DNA from: Candidatus Nitrosocosmicus agrestis
Lineage (GTDB): Archaea; Thermoproteota; Nitrososphaeria; Nitrososphaerales; Nitrososphaeraceae
NCBI RefSeq assembly: GCF_008389435.1
Contig: NZ_VUYS01000004.1
Span: forward strand, 1-64,000
Reading direction: 5' to 3'
Length of the DNA: 64,000 nucleotides
Shown here: in pieces, positions 6,837-25,922 of the stretch
Layout of the letters: the number at the start of each line of letters is the position of its first letter
Numbering within the stretch: position 1 is the first letter of the stretch
The notes under the pieces: model-generated
The model's input: the letters and a program-made list of their open reading frames with translations, nothing else
What the model was told of the DNA's origin: nothing
The model's database searches: none
Translations under genes and position numbers: made by a program

Positions 6837-8129
6837 CTATAGTCTTAGTCTGATAATAGGGATGATAAAAACAGCAATCAATAATCCCCCTGTTAACCAT
6901 GCAATAGAATAACCAAAACCTTTTACCATGAAGGAAAACAGGATAGGTGCCCAAAAAGCACCCAAAAGGGATATGCCATTAACGTAGCTTATGGCCAATA
7001 CATCATAATATGGCATCCCCATATTTTCGACCACTATTCTTCTTGCCAAAGTATATGGGATGACAAAACCGCCTGACGCAAATATTCCAATAATAACAAT
7101 TAATGGTATCAATAAATGTAATGGGGCCAATGAGAACAGTGATATACAAACTGCAATAATTAGGCCACATGAAACTAATGATATGACATCAAGTTTGACA
7201 CATTTTTTTCTAACAAAATGATCATATATTTTACCAAACACAGGAGCAAACAGTACATTGACAATTAATGTTGTCATTCCTATTAAACCTGCTAACGCGG
7301 ATGTTAAACCTAAATCAATTTTTAAATAAACAATTATGAATGTCGAAACCAACATCCAACCAATTTGTACTCCTAAAAGAGATAAAGCCACCAGCAAAAT
7401 AGATTTGTTTGTCATAATTTTCTTCAAATTTTTTAAACTAATCTGAGAATTTGGGACTGAAATACGGTGATTAAACTTATAATGTATAGAACCATTGAAT
7501 AATTCTGTAATTCTCCTCATACTTGACAGGAATTTTTTACCCATATTAGTATCATTCAAATATTGTCGCTTAAATAAGTAATAGGATAGTAATACGCCAC
7601 TAAAAAGACCCAATATTCCACCAAAGACAAGACCTGTTCGCCATCCCAACAAATCGGCCAATATTATCCATCCAAACACACCAATAATTCCACCCAAAGA
7701 ATGAGCGGAATTCAACATTCCAACTCCAAGACCTTCAGATCCCTTACCTAGATAATTTGAGATTATGATTACACTAGGGCCAAAGAAAAAGGCCATTCCT
7801 ACGCCAACTAAGAATCGAAGAATTACCATCTGATAAATTTCAGAAACAAATCCAGTTAGAAGCGATGCGGTGGACAGTAATAAAGTACCTCCAACTATTA
7901 TTAGCTTGGGATCATATTTTGCAGAGAGGATGCCAGCCGGGATTTGAAATAAACCTATTCCAATAAGAAAACTAGAGGTTATCAATCCTAACATAGATAC
8001 ATCTTGTCTAAAATCTACGAGAATCAAATAAAATATTGATGAAATGTTGAACCAGTTTATTGCATATAGTATACGGGCAAATATGATTGAGAAAACAGGT
8101 AATGAAAATACCAGAGACTTTGGGGACAT
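6837..8129 (-). CDS. MFS transporter, 12-helix type
   Basis: This protein of about 430 residues is hydrophobic in two six-helix halves joined by a basic loop at about residues 190-225. The motif-A equivalent is degenerate (AGILSAKYDPKLII) and the second half has a related FGKIYDHFVRKKC loop. ILYAINWFNISS and GVGMAFFFGPSVIIISNYLG are typical MFS helices. The substrate cannot be assigned. A TTG lies one codon upstream at 8132, but the ATG at 8129 is the more likely start. It stands alone, convergent with nreA and divergent from the next small gene. Confidence 0.85.
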   Translation of the reverse strand: MSPKSLVFSLPVFSIIFARILYAINWFNISSIFYLILVDFRQDVSMLGLITSSFLIGIGLFQIPAGILSAKYDPKLIIVGGTLLLSTASLLTGFVSEIYQMVILRFLVGVGMAFFFGPSVIIISNYLGKGSEGLGVGMLNSAHSLGGIIGVFGWIILADLLGWRTGLVFGGILGLFSGVLLSYYLFKRQYLNDTNMGKKFLSSMRRITELFNGSIHYKFNHRISVPNSQISLKNLKKIMTNKSILLVALSLLGVQIGWMLVSTFIIVYLKIDLGLTSALAGLIGMTTLIVNVLFAPVFGKIYDHFVRKKCVKLDVISLVSCGLIIAVCISLFSLAPLHLLIPLIVIIGIFASGGFVIPYTLARRIVVENMGMPYYDVLAISYVNGISLLGAFWAPILFSFMVKGFGYSIAWLTGGLLIAVFIIPIIRLRL

Positions 8130-8132
8130 CAA

Positions 8133-8466
8133 TCAATCAAGCCATCAAGAGTATATTATGTTATTAACAATATCTGATTAGATACTCCAATATAAGTAAA
8201 CCAAACAGCAAATGTCTTTCTAAATTCGTCCTGTAATAAAGACCCATAACATTTGAATAAAGCAAAGGTATTAAATAAATTCAAACTACGATACAGAAAG
8301 CTCAATTAATCCGCAATTTATTTGGAATGCGATCTTAATAGTTATAAAAGTATTACTTATGGACCGAAATAAAGCAAATGAATTATCATAACCATCAGAT
8401 AATCAAGATAAAGAGTCTCGCGAAGGGGTCTTAAACTTCATATATGTAACAAATTTTAATTGACAA
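8133..8466. other. Divergent intergenic region
   Basis: This 334-bp region lies between two divergent genes. It holds their promoters and no ORF that I would call. A small GC-richer patch (GTCTCGCGAAGGGGTC, about 8415-8430) sits just upstream of the TATA box of the zinc-ribbon gene and could be a regulatory site, but I see no symmetry that proves it. Confidence 0.4.
8439..8446 (+). promoter_or_regulatory. TATA box of the 75-aa zinc-ribbon gene
   Basis: The element CATATATG is centred about 25 nt before the ATG at 8467, the spacing expected for a leaderless archaeal transcript. Confidence 0.4.
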
Positions 8467-10481: not shown

Positions 10482-11153
10482 TTATGGAAAAACATGGTTT
10501 CCTGTGTATCTATCAATAATGATAATTGCTTTTGTGGGACAGGTTTTTGCGGCGTCTAAAATGGTTTCAAAGTCTTCTGCCGTTTCGGAAATAACCACAG
10601 CTTTAGGATTAAACTGTCGGTCTTTTTCTACCAAAAACACTTTTGGAGCTAATACTTCACAACTACCAAAAGCTAAACATAAAGAAGGTTCGACTATTAT
10701 TTGATAGCGACTTTGTATTACAGGAATAAATTCATTTTGCAAATCAACAGTTTCCGATGGATTAATTGTTGGCTTGTTGCCTGTTCCTGAATCATAATCA
10801 TCTTTTTTGGAATCCTGATACTCATAATCAATTACCTCAGTGTCTGAGTTCCGCATCTTTTGGTTTTGATTTTGATATGAAAATGTATCTTCTTGTGACA
10901 TTCCGATAGTAGGTGATTTTGACCTCTTTATTTTTTCATCATATTCTTGCCTCTTTTGGATATCAGACAAAGTTTCGAATGCAATATTGATATTTTTCAT
11001 AACATCGTCTGAAACTGCTGAATTTCGGTCCGGATGATATTTTCGTGCTAATCGTCTGTAAGCTATTTTAATTTCCTTCTGATTTGCACTTATAGGTATA
11101 TCTAAAATCCCATAATAATCATCGCTCGTCAAACAGAGATTCGATATATTCAA
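10482..11153 (-). CDS. J-domain protein fused to a ferredoxin domain (DnaJ-Fer)
   Basis: The 223-residue protein begins with a J-domain (about residues 12-75: YYGILDIPISANQKEIK, then RRLARKYHPDRN with the HPD triad that stimulates DnaK). It continues through a low-complexity Asp/Ser/Gln-rich linker and ends with a single-cluster ferredoxin-like domain at about 155-215. DnaJ-Fer fusions are a known thaumarchaeal trait, proposed to have been acquired from plants/algae. The cluster ligands here are C-x5-C (CLAFGSC) plus a distal CP, that is three cysteines, as in [3Fe-4S] ferredoxins. A link between redox or Fe-S state and chaperone recruitment is plausible but not shown. An overlapping plus-strand frame (10444-10704) is a shadow. 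Confidence 0.88.
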   Translation of the reverse strand: MNISNLCLTSDDYYGILDIPISANQKEIKIAYRRLARKYHPDRNSAVSDDVMKNINIAFETLSDIQKRQEYDEKIKRSKSPTIGMSQEDTFSYQNQNQKMRNSDTEVIDYEYQDSKKDDYDSGTGNKPTINPSETVDLQNEFIPVIQSRYQIIVEPSLCLAFGSCEVLAPKVFLVEKDRQFNPKAVVISETAEDFETILDAAKTCPTKAIIIIDRYTGNHVFP

Positions 11154-11421
11154 GTCTAATCATATTGTATTTATACATATGCAATACATAGGGGGTTCAA
11201 GCATAGAATGTAGATATGTCAAGGTATAATACAGAAATATCCAATACAGACTCCATTATTGTCAATTAAGGATCAAAGCAGATCTAAAAACTATTTTATC
11301 AATATCAATATAATTGAATTAATATTTTATTGGCAATATGAGAATAAATACTAAAATATTCATGGGCTTTGAAATAAAACTTTATTGCACATGAATCTAC
11401 TATTATATTGTTAAATGTAGA

Positions 11422-11649
11422 ATGTCAGGTAGCCAAAATCCAAACAGAGGTAAAAATGGATTGATTTCTCGTTTTGTATCGTTTATAGTGCTTGGAATAA
11501 TTCTGCCTTTTATTATAAAAAGGGTTCGAAATCAATTAGTCAAAGAACAATTATCAAATTGTGAAAGGTGCAAAAGAAAGATGGAAAAAATTAGTAAAAA
11601 TGAATACTATTGCAAAGATTGTAAAATTATAAGAATAGTCGATACGTAA
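11422..11649 (+). CDS. Small membrane-anchored zinc-ribbon protein, 75 aa
   Basis: A hydrophobic helix at about residues 17-32 (FVSFIVLGIILPFIIKRV) is followed by a basic stretch and a C-terminal four-Cys ribbon, CERC at about 49-52 and CKDC at about 65-68. The layout suggests a membrane-tethered cytoplasmic zinc ribbon. I know no family name. It is divergent from the DnaJ-Fer gene and convergent with the next minus-strand gene. Confidence 0.65.
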   Translation: MSGSQNPNRGKNGLISRFVSFIVLGIILPFIIKRVRNQLVKEQLSNCERCKRKMEKISKNEYYCKDCKIIRIVDT

Positions 11650-11726
11650 CAGTTAAAATTTAACAGGTCAAATTATGGAAAAACATTATAGATAGAATCA
11701 AGACACAGAGTGTAGATAAAATACCA

Positions 11727-11748
11727 GATCAAAAAAGTTTTTTTTATC
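11727..11748. terminator. A/T-run inverted repeat between convergent genes
   Basis: A run of six A is followed by G and eight T, flanked by GATC and ATC, so the sequence can pair with itself. T tracts end archaeal transcripts on either strand. It lies between the convergent genes ending at 11649 and 11821 and could serve both. Confidence 0.35.
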
Positions 11749-11820
11749 AATAAAGATAATAATTTTTTCTTTTTGGTGTAAACCTTTGAAAATTAGAGAT
11801 GTTAGCCTATAACTATCTTA

Positions 11821-12060
11821 TTAGGATCTAGAATTTCGAATTTTTAACTCATAATTAACTTCAAACATGGTCAATATATTTCTCAGGTTTTCACTCGATG
11901 AGAACCTACAAATTGTAATCCAATCTCTCTTTTGATTTGCCCTTATTTCACAAATTCCATTGTTGGGAATGTCGATTGATTCCACATCAAATTGAAAGCG
12001 TAGTTTTTCTTCAAGTTGAGATTTCAATGGCTCCATCGCCATTATCATAATTTTTTGCAT
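11821..12060 (-). CDS. Hypothetical protein, 79 aa
   Basis: This small soluble protein is mixed alpha/beta with a Met-rich start (MQKIMIMAMEPL) and one central Cys. The phrases FDVESIDIPNNGICEIRA and DWITICRFSS read like beta strands and suggest a compact domain. I recognise no family. The ATG at 12060 is preceded by GGTG at about 10 nt, a possible ribosome-binding site. The composition supports translation, but there is no independent evidence. Confidence 0.5.
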   Translation of the reverse strand: MQKIMIMAMEPLKSQLEEKLRFQFDVESIDIPNNGICEIRANQKRDWITICRFSSSENLRNILTMFEVNYELKIRNSRS

Positions 12061-12189
12061 AATAACACACCAGTATCAAATATTGCATTGTCAAAAGATA
12101 TAATCATGGTTGTAATAATGGCTGGTGGCTAATTTATGGGATACTATGCTTCTAACAGTGCATGATATCTAAAGATAACTCCTTAAAGT

Positions 12190-12471
12190 TTGACTAACTC
12201 AAATCATTTAATAATTAAGCTTTTGAATATCCAAAAATTAATTGGTCAAGTAGATATCAATCACACTAGACAAATCATGATTTTTGTTTCATTGTTAAAT
12301 ACCTTTGTTTTTATGACTCTTTTGATAATATTCAACTTTGTCTTGGAGATATGGCTCAATAGTATGTTATATATATTTTATTTTTACCCTAGTTTATTCG
12401 AATCAACATCTCAAGCCGAGAGTACAAAGAAAAACCCACAGTTACCAACATTAAGAGATTCTACTCAATAG
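12190..12471 (+). CDS. Possible small membrane protein, up to 93 aa
   Basis: The frame opens with TTG and contains one long or two short hydrophobic segments (IMIFVSLLNTFVFMTLLI, then MLYIFYFYPSLF). Its tail is polar and Ser/Thr/Gln-rich. An internal ATG at 12280 (start of MIFVSLLN) would give a protein of about 63 residues. No convincing TATA box stands before the TTG. It lies upstream of cdc48 on the same strand. I call it with low confidence because A/T-rich DNA easily encodes hydrophobic runs. Confidence 0.38.
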   Translation: MTNSNHLIIKLLNIQKLIGQVDINHTRQIMIFVSLLNTFVFMTLLIIFNFVLEIWLNSMLYIFYFYPSLFESTSQAESTKKNPQLPTLRDSTQ

Positions 12472-12565
12472 GAGTATCTAAACAACTACATATAAATAAG
12501 CGATCTCAGGTAAAATATAAAAATTTTACTTGGAATGTTTAAATCTCCTGTTTAATAGATAGTGA

Positions 12566-14806
<2,241 letters not shown>

Positions 14807-23735: not shown

Positions 23736-24227
23736 TTAAATGTTGTTCTCATCCTTTTTTTCCATTAAGAATGCAATAGTTTGATTTTTTCTAAAGTCAA
23801 ATATCCGTTTAAGTGATCGAATCATATAACAACTTATTATTCTGCCCTGAAGGTAAAAAGGTAGCTTAAAATCAATCTCATCTTTAATAATAGTCTTGTG
23901 ATTATCCAATTTTACAAAAATGTGAGTATGTCTCCAATGAGGGAATGGTCCATTTATCATTTCGTCTACATACTTGTATTTTTGAGAATATGTAATTTGA
24001 GACTTCCAAGTTTTTTTAATAAATAGGAAAGTACCAGATAAAGTAACCAAAGTTCCGGCATGCAATTCAGATGACGTAGTTGACAGTATTTTAAGATGCA
24101 TTTGTGAAGGAGTAATTCGCTCCAGATGCATGATATCAGTGTAAAAATTCCAGACATAATCAATACAAGTATTTACAATAAATGAATGCTCAAATCTCAA
24201 ATTTGATTTATCTCTTGTTATTGTCAA
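23736..24227 (-). CDS. SRPBCC (START/Bet v1-like) ligand-binding protein
   Basis: The 163-residue protein opens with RFEHSFIVNTCIDYVWNFYTDIMHLERITPSQMHLKIL, the classic strand-helix-helix start of the SRPBCC helix-grip fold; EMINGPFPHWRHTHIFVKL and IIKDEIDFKLPF are the following strands. It resembles polyketide-cyclase/dehydrase and cell-division-inhibitor SRPBCC proteins that bind hydrophobic ligands. TTG start at 24227. The restored reading frame of the upstream VOC gene would end at 24208, so the two genes overlap by about 20 nt and were probably translated together. Confidence 0.8.
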   Translation of the reverse strand: MTITRDKSNLRFEHSFIVNTCIDYVWNFYTDIMHLERITPSQMHLKILSTTSSELHAGTLVTLSGTFLFIKKTWKSQITYSQKYKYVDEMINGPFPHWRHTHIFVKLDNHKTIIKDEIDFKLPFYLQGRIISCYMIRSLKRIFDFRKNQTIAFLMEKKDENNI

Positions 24228-24599
24228 TGGATTGCTCCATCATAATAAATTCATTTCCTTCATTATCCTTAAACAACACATATGATCCTAGTTCAGAATG
24301 CATTGGCACATGAGAAAAGACACGCCATTTTTTGTCATCTGTTCAATTGTGGATTTTATATCCAATGTTTCAAATATAATTGTGGATAAAGGTCTCGACA
24401 TCCTATTAGTTACCATTGATTTGGGGTATAGAATTAGTGAAGTATCTTTTGAGTCATGGTGAATAATTTGAATCCATCTAAGTTTTGGATCTAGAACAAT
24501 ATCTTTTAGAACTGTAAAATTTAGTTTCTCCACCCAAAAGGCCAATGCTTCATTTTGATCTTTTACAAATATAATTATAGATGAAATGCCACTGATCAA
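24208..24599 (-). pseudogene. VOC/glyoxalase-family protein, frameshifted near the C-terminus
   Basis: The frame from TTG at 24599 gives 103 residues beginning MISGISSIIIFVKDQNEALAF, a good VOC (glyoxalase/dioxygenase) beta-alpha-beta start. It has LRWIQIIHHD and TIIFETLDI. After NGVSF the frame runs into a short nonsense tail and stops at 24288. In the next frame the expected C-terminal motif appears directly: HVPMHSELGSYVLFKDNEGN then EFIMMEQ, ending at 24208. One extra T in the run of four T (minus strand, near 24310-24316) restores a full protein of about 130 residues. Either the gene is decayed or the sequence has a homopolymer error. Confidence 0.8.
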
Positions 24600-24753: not shown

Positions 24754-25740
24754 CTATATCCATTCGTCATCCACTGCGTAATAGATCTTTTTACGAATAT
24801 CATCTAAATTTGTTTTTTCTACAATTAACCCTTGTTCTTTTAGTTCTTCCAACCCGGTCTGAACCGTTCTGCGTGGCAGGTTTGTAGTATGAATTAACTC
24901 GCTTTGTTCCATCGAATTTCGATTCCTAATAACATAATAGATAAACTTTGTTGCAGGACTTCCTTTTGCAATTTTTTTCATACTAGAAATTCCATAACTA
25001 GATCTTGACAAGAATCCTTTTCGCTGAGACTCTATTGAAAATACATTTTCAAGATCAATTTCCCCAAGATTTACTCTTTGGCCAAACTCTGCAATCAATG
25101 CAGATTGTTGAATTTCAAGTGGAGCTTCGAATATGATCCTGTTGGGAGATAATTTTGATGTAATTGCACCTAAAGCATTCCATTTAATGTTTCCTTTCTC
25201 ATCGTAAATACCTGCTGCATATCCCAAATTACCTTCCAATAGTATTTTCTCAGCACCAACATTGAGGGCTTCATTCACTTTTACTATTGTCTGTTCAAAT
25301 GTAAGTTGCCTTCTAGGATCCTTCTTGCCGATTTTCCATAAAGGTTGTATTTTTTTTTCAATCAATTTATCAGAGATCTGTTTCTTTTTCTCAGGTGGCA
25401 ATTCAATATTATTTTCACCTATCTCGATAATATCAAAACCCAAACGCTTGACGTCATCAATATATATATCAAGCGATTTTTCTAATAAGACATATTCTGT
25501 AAGAGAACTACCTACAGAAACTAAAACATCGTATTCGTGATAATAATTAATGCGATCTTGTAACTGTTCGTCCGACATTAGTAAGGGTAGTGCGCCATAT
25601 ATCTTGACCATATCAATTAATGGAGACATTAACTTAAAATTGCCAGTATCAAATCCTTGAAATTTATCTACTATGTATGTTAACCCGTCTGTCCTAGGCT
25701 TTTTCCAGTCGATTCTTTTTGTAGATAAATGATCTAACAT
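24754..25740 (-). CDS. Phosphosulfolactate synthase-like (ComA) domain fused to a C-terminal winged helix
   Basis: Residues 1-245 match the ComA TIM-barrel family: KKPRTDGLTYIVDKFQGFD at the start, IDMVKIYGAL, LVSVGSSLTEYVL, LGFDIIEIGENN, AEKILLEGN and IIFEAPLEIQQ. ComA joins sulfite to phosphoenolpyruvate, the first step of coenzyme M synthesis in methanogens. Residues of about 255-328 form a winged helix with a MarR/TrmB feel (PATKFIYYVIRNRNSM, TNLPRRTVQTGLEELKEQGL). The canonical enzyme is about 250 residues long and has no such domain. It could be a metabolite-sensing regulator or a self-regulated enzyme. The ATG start is clear and the gene is single. Confidence 0.85.
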   Translation of the reverse strand: MLDHLSTKRIDWKKPRTDGLTYIVDKFQGFDTGNFKLMSPLIDMVKIYGALPLLMSDEQLQDRINYYHEYDVLVSVGSSLTEYVLLEKSLDIYIDDVKRLGFDIIEIGENNIELPPEKKKQISDKLIEKKIQPLWKIGKKDPRRQLTFEQTIVKVNEALNVGAEKILLEGNLGYAAGIYDEKGNIKWNALGAITSKLSPNRIIFEAPLEIQQSALIAEFGQRVNLGEIDLENVFSIESQRKGFLSRSSYGISSMKKIAKGSPATKFIYYVIRNRNSMEQSELIHTTNLPRRTVQTGLEELKEQGLIVEKTNLDDIRKKIYYAVDDEWI

Positions 25741-25922
25741 ATTCTACAATAGTTCTAGCCAAGTATTGAATGATTCCAATTCAAATTAATATTGAAATGC
25801 CTAATTACTCACAAATAATAGGATACAATCAGGACTATTTGTATTACATTCTTAGTATTATTGTTAGGAATATAGTTTTCGTAAGTAGACAAGAGCATTG
25901 GTATTTTGACATGATTATATCC

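Follow-up and report, generated by a model that had tools for sequence, protein, structure and literature searches.

BirA and NadR each combine an enzyme domain with a helix-turn-helix and control a related transport or synthesis locus, and the bacterial sulfonate regulators Cbl, CysB, SsuR and TauR are proteins of the LysR or GntR type. The gene studied here lies in a stretch of 64,000 nucleotides from Candidatus Nitrosocosmicus agrestis (the window; contig NZ_VUYS01000004.1) and codes for a barrel of the type of ComA, the (2R)-phospho-3-sulfolactate synthase, followed by a winged helix. This fusion is of the same kind as BirA and NadR but belongs to another enzyme family, its putative sensor being the ComA barrel, and its winged helix is C-terminal. 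With Cbl, CysB, SsuR and TauR it shares the proposed role on sulfonate transporter genes but no domain. The methanogen regulator MsvR differs in having an N-terminal winged helix (profile positions 12-71 of 236) and a sensor that is not a ComA barrel, and NAD kinases of Thermoproteota carry a related C-terminal winged helix on a different metabolic enzyme. An enzyme-derived regulator is a known kind of protein; neither this ComA fusion nor a sensor of the ComA-barrel type is described in the literature searched.

Positions 24754-25740 form a complete ATG-to-stop open reading frame of 328 amino acids on the minus strand. The Pfam ComA model PF02679 matched residues 13-244 (25009-25704, minus strand; E-value 1.5e-61, 208 bits), which places the protein in the wider Pfam family, and Foldseek aligned the barrel with the ComA structures of M. 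jannaschii (1qwg) and B. subtilis (1u83) at TM scores of 0.83 and 0.84, respectively, by target length. The AlphaFold2 model, computed from a 42-row alignment, had a mean pLDDT of 85.7 and exhibited a complete barrel, a flexible linker (residues 245-255, 24976-25008, minus strand) of low confidence, with pLDDT below 50 at residues 244-255, and a winged helix-turn-helix (residues 256-324, 24769-24975, minus strand). In the latter, helix 262-274, strand 276-278, helices 279-286 and 290-303 and a two-strand wing (306-310/318-322) form the canonical H1-H2-H3-wing fold, with block-mean pLDDT values of 80-92 across residues 261-320. The HMM matches of the tail were weak but consistent: TrmB (0.0014) and HTH_43 (0.0021), both under the Pfam family cut-offs, HTH_11 and MarR_2, the best named relative being the NCBIfam MsvR model (NF053755), which matched residues 261-321 at 6.6e-6. 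The recognition helix spans residues 290-303 approximately and is preceded by an LPRRT motif; R290, R291 and T292 are invariant in the 42 aligned sequences. The earlier note had read a ComA barrel and a winged helix in one reading frame, and both domains were confirmed. The fusion is real, and is neither a chance match nor a sequencing artefact, because dozens of genomes have the same layout without internal stop and the dN/dS is low within Nitrosocosmicus.

The two characterised ComA structures, from M. jannaschii (1qwg) and B. subtilis (1u83), lack the tail, and so does the archaeal ComA model with its 241 positions, M. jannaschii being the methanogen sampled. The comparison with PDB sequences found the same enzymes, with chains of 251 and 276 residues and matches ending at 244 and 270, and therefore the tail has no room in these ComA enzymes, which end after the barrel. 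A similar tail was observed on another protein. NAD kinases with a C-terminal winged helix akin to that of the ComA fusion are encoded at L003:1489-2493 (minus strand; G000:C39) and L118:1492-2382 (minus strand), the kinase tail matching the window tail at 35% and, for genomes G390 and G579, the kinase and fusion tails matching at 49%. Tail matches were also located in frames of about 330-350 amino acids in most sampled Nitrososphaeria genomes and in frames of about 300-340 amino acids in several genomes of another class; two of these proteins in all were confirmed as NAD kinases. This second enzyme-winged-helix fusion perhaps has a common origin with the tail of the ComA fusion.

We then compared the barrel pocket with those of the ComA enzymes at the positions where the ComA proteins of M. 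jannaschii and B. subtilis (1u83) agree with the fusion of G579, a genome outside the class (M. jannaschii numbering). The fold is common to both, the fusion aligning structurally at 29% identity with 1qwg and 26% with 1u83, and many acidic and lysine positions of the active-site face are conserved, D20, K43, E79, E103, K137, E168, E205 and Q212 being kept or nearly so in the 46 sequences of the clade of the window copy. In the same clade, E133 is replaced by K (45 of 46), R170 by N (46), S49 by P (46), N227 by E (45) and G107 by N (43); in nearly all sequences G75 is replaced by S and W46 by G, N or S, and S105 is mostly replaced by G. The changed positions sit, in the secondary structure of the model, at the C-terminal ends of the barrel strands or just beyond, and in such barrels these strand ends form the active-site face. 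The comparison with characterised ComA that the earlier note had called for is thus divided: many acidic and lysine positions are kept, but several active-site-face residues common to the characterised enzymes (E133, R170, S105, G107 and N227) are replaced in this clade, and therefore the ligand may differ from the sulfite and phosphoenolpyruvate suggested earlier. Because the replacements are uniform across the clade, they would favour a novel binding site under selection over decay.

The conserved residues could also be read in terms of an enzyme that still catalyses the phosphosulfolactate synthase or a related reaction, its tail reporting the substrate level to its own genes. The window's clade indeed keeps D25, K46, E82, E106, K140, E169, E205 and Q212 (window numbering), and the deep fusions of G579, G627 and G165/G170 retain residues common to the M. 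jannaschii and B. subtilis enzymes. We nevertheless hold such a catalytic role to be improbable for the fusion, since the replacements of E133, R170, S49, N227 and G107 are fixed or nearly so in the 46 sequences and the window protein reaches only 159.7 bits with the archaeal ComA equivalog model TIGR03849, below its 280-bit cut-off. Coenzyme M biosynthesis by the window gene was set aside on the same two grounds, the missed equivalog cut-off and the changed pocket.

The search for the fusion across Nitrososphaeria, also called for earlier, found it throughout the Nitrososphaeraceae and in a few relatives. In the class-wide sample, most Nitrososphaeraceae genomes have it, often in two copies, as do three Nitrosopumilaceae genomes (four copies) and two genomes of a further family, f7; it is also present in two genomes of another class, G579 and its congener G627. 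Broken remnants of the fusion were observed in some other genomes. A phylum-wide PF02679 search found ComA-type genes in 13 of 398 genomes. Six tailless ComA-like proteins from other genomes of the phylum (L085, L086, L087, L090, L091 and L094) are separated from ComA by a very long branch and were kept apart as a subfamily of their own. In a tree built from the barrel only, all fusions group together (support 86): G579/G627 branch off deepest and f7 next, followed by a clade of Nitrososphaeraceae and Nitrosopumilaceae (100), in which the window copy belongs to a six-row subclade (support 100); the deepest joins are tentative because the enzymes are on long branches. The f7 (G165/G170) and G579/G627 fusions retain the enzyme-like residues E133, S105, G107, R170, E171 and N227 (M. 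jannaschii numbering). The simplest reading of the tree and residues would be one fusion event followed by the pocket change; transfer between lineages may also have taken place.

The window copy had been presented as a lone oddity, and it is not one: the same genome has a second fusion, 62% identical, on contig C22 (20599-21582) within a sulfonate-transporter locus. Gene neighbourhoods were compared for 49 distinct fusions, 42 of them outside the window's subclade. An SsuABC-type transporter gene was located within three genes of the fusion in 34 of these 42 loci, and six of the eight exceptions are near contig ends. The transporter binding protein passes the cut-off of the SsuA-family model TIGR01728, and the ATPase and permease resemble the SaoA/taurine/nitrate and SaoP/SsuC types, respectively, under the equivalog cut-offs. 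The binding-protein gene is the divergent neighbour of the fusion in 13 loci, and the f7 fusions, with their intact pocket, are likewise divergent from an SsuABC-type operon. The G579 and G627 fusions adjoin a PF04143 (Sulf_transp) gene and a peroxiredoxin gene in conserved order. Genes for rhodanese and for a rhodanese-metallohydrolase are close to several copies, and in two Nitrosopumilaceae loci (L075 and L076) the fusion is part of a larger island that also contains genes for rhodanese, PF03601, a NifU-type protein and a second binding protein, to which L075 adds DUF326. Sulfonate genes are mentioned in the description of N. viennensis. In the transporter locus of the host genome (L048), two permease genes (7549-8373 and 10886-11818) are near-identical and two binding proteins (11967-13112 and 13469-14662) have an identical internal stretch, which suggests recent duplication or gene conversion.

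A palindrome-constrained EM search of 45 fusion-gene upstream regions led to a 21-bp palindrome, TATATGCAAAATTTGCATATA, present on many fusion-gene promoters, with a score of 218.7 compared to 31-34 for mononucleotide shuffles. The matrix was trained on the fusion-gene upstream regions alone and then applied to promoters that these training intervals do not include. At a threshold of at least 13 bits, 12 of 41 held-out transporter promoters were positive compared to 5 of 494 control promoters (Fisher 3.7e-11, a value that overstates independence because the genomes are related). The other 29 transporter promoters stayed under this threshold, some of the genes concerned being inside operons. 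Of the five control positives, one precedes a truncated transporter ATPase gene and two precede NifU-type genes belonging to the same island. Promoters of Cys-rich DUF326 genes in three genomes scored 20.6, 25.1 and 19.3 bits. With a sequence-only profile, the best matches of most fusion genomes (up to 19.3 bits) were at fusion, transporter or DUF326 loci, compared to a maximum of 14.7 bits across six genomes that lack a full-length fusion, a result that is supporting rather than independent because some of these sites were in the training set. For the Nitrosopumilaceae fusions, three of the four genes showed no site and the fourth a weak one of 8.9 bits. Small stand-alone winged-helix proteins without barrel, which match the fusion tail at 53-58% identity, are encoded at L075:3137-3358 (plus strand) and L077:9051-9359 (minus strand) and adjoin palindrome-bearing DUF326 genes.

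In the host genome, the derived pattern is matched exactly at the promoter of the paralogue (C22:20571), and with one mismatch at the ATPase promoter (C22:17591) and at C14:48710. Tandem palindromes at C22:10193 and 10245 (L107:10193-10265), which are exact matches too, start 52 bp apart, a distance of about five helical turns, and the second site ends 63 nt 5' of a Cys-rich DUF326 gene (L107:10328-10684, plus strand). A palindrome pair with equal 52-bp spacing was observed in G100 (2189148/2189200). A further exact match, C2:33837, is within the glyA coding sequence and was taken as chance, and matches at G070 727373 and 1226650 and at G093 2853127 gave no coherent target. The position of the palindrome differs between the two groups of promoters: on many fusion-gene promoters it ends 7-14 nt 5' of the start codon, whereas on transporter promoters it mostly ends 57-70 nt 5' of the start codon, upstream of an AT-rich, TATA-like stretch. 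At divergent loci such as L065, a single site serves both genes.

The DUF326 sites bear on what the signal might be. DUF326 proteins resemble copper-storage proteins, and a palindrome ahead of these Cys-rich genes, together with the rhodanese and rhodanese-metallohydrolase genes near several copies, would fit a response to copper or to thiol or persulfide stress, the SsuABC-type transporter then moving something other than sulfonate. The most constant partner is however the SsuA-family transporter, the deep fusions adjoin the PF04143 sulfur transporter and the peroxiredoxin, and the main text of a copper-limitation transcriptome of N. viennensis (PMC7785015) mentions no sulfonate, DUF326 or phosphosulfolactate genes. 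We therefore regard copper or thiol stress as an unlikely signal and sulfonate supply as the better candidate.

The window copy itself stands apart from its transporter-linked paralogues. Transporter linkage and a common operator, the features expected of a Cbl-, TauR- or SsuR-like regulator, are found among the relatives outside its subclade, with the linkage in 34 of 42 loci and the held-out operator matches; within its subclade no transporter gene was near the fusion in any of the seven loci, and no sulfur gene is beside the window copy. Its own promoter has no palindrome, the maximum of the weight matrix over the 64 kb of the window being 11.1 bits. The earlier suggestion that the protein controls its own operon consequently fits the transporter-linked paralogues, which have the palindrome at their own and their partners' promoters, but not the window copy. 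The promoters of the subclade have in common a TATA-like element of TTCAATA type (six informative upstream rows), located in the window at 25764-25770 (minus strand), in a conserved promoter-like element 24-30 nt 5' of the ATG, which we infer to be the promoter. Downstream of the fusion, a glyoxalase-type gene (24193-24599, minus strand) is frameshifted near position 24321 compared to Nitrosocosmicus relatives, the rest being readable in another frame.

If the window copy were a redundant duplicate that regulates nothing itself, this would account for the missing operator and transporter and for the frameshifted neighbour, and broken fusion remnants do exist in some other genomes. We consider such redundancy very unlikely, because the copy is retained in several Nitrosocosmicus genomes under strong purifying selection, with dN/dS of about 0.03-0.06 within the subclade where dS was measurable, and because its recognition helix averages 98% identity within the subclade (78% to the linked paralogues). 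Low dN/dS and a conserved recognition helix point to a maintained, regulator-like paralogue. Having a similar recognition helix, it would most likely act in trans at promoters that it shares, wholly or in part, with the linked paralogues, most simply at the C22 sites.

A ComA barrel joined to a DNA-binding tail, the loss of active-site residues, and copies beside a sulfonate pump and near a palindrome together make a genetic switch responsive to a sulfur compound the most likely function. The regulatory role proposed in the earlier note is hence largely supported, through the palindrome and synteny of the relatives. We propose that the barrel would sense a small ligand that contains sulfur and is probably an anion resembling a sulfonate or sulfite, and that the winged helix, as a dimer, would bind the 21-bp palindrome. 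The geometry of the sites suggests autorepression, as the palindrome overlaps the start region of the transporter-linked regulator genes, and activation, as it is placed about 55-70 nt 5' of the start codons of the transporter and DUF326 genes, ahead of the TATA-like stretch; the sign of control is deduced from this geometry. The fusion protein would thereby turn sulfonate uptake, and the sulfur functions associated with it, on or off. With DNA binding, dimer, ligand and sign predicted from the genes, we hold it to be quite probable that the protein is a one-component regulator that arose from ComA and governs sulfur acquisition, autorepressing and transporter-activating. With somewhat less assurance, we favour the broader view of a new archaeal regulator class with a repurposed ComA sensor, formed in a series from plain enzyme through a tailed enzyme with intact pocket (G579/G627, f7) to the remodelled pocket of the Nitrososphaeraceae, in which one palindrome would control sulfonate and sulfur uptake, the Cys-rich DUF326 proteins and, in some species, Fe-S assembly in ammonia-oxidizing archaea.

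Little is known about the regulation of nutrient uptake in ammonia-oxidizing archaea, and we found no sulfur regulator of these organisms in the literature searched. In these archaea, a gene annotated for coenzyme M biosynthesis is no evidence of that pathway. The present analysis gives a specific, testable regulator together with its DNA site and gene set, and different genomes seem to retain intermediates on the way from enzyme to sensor.
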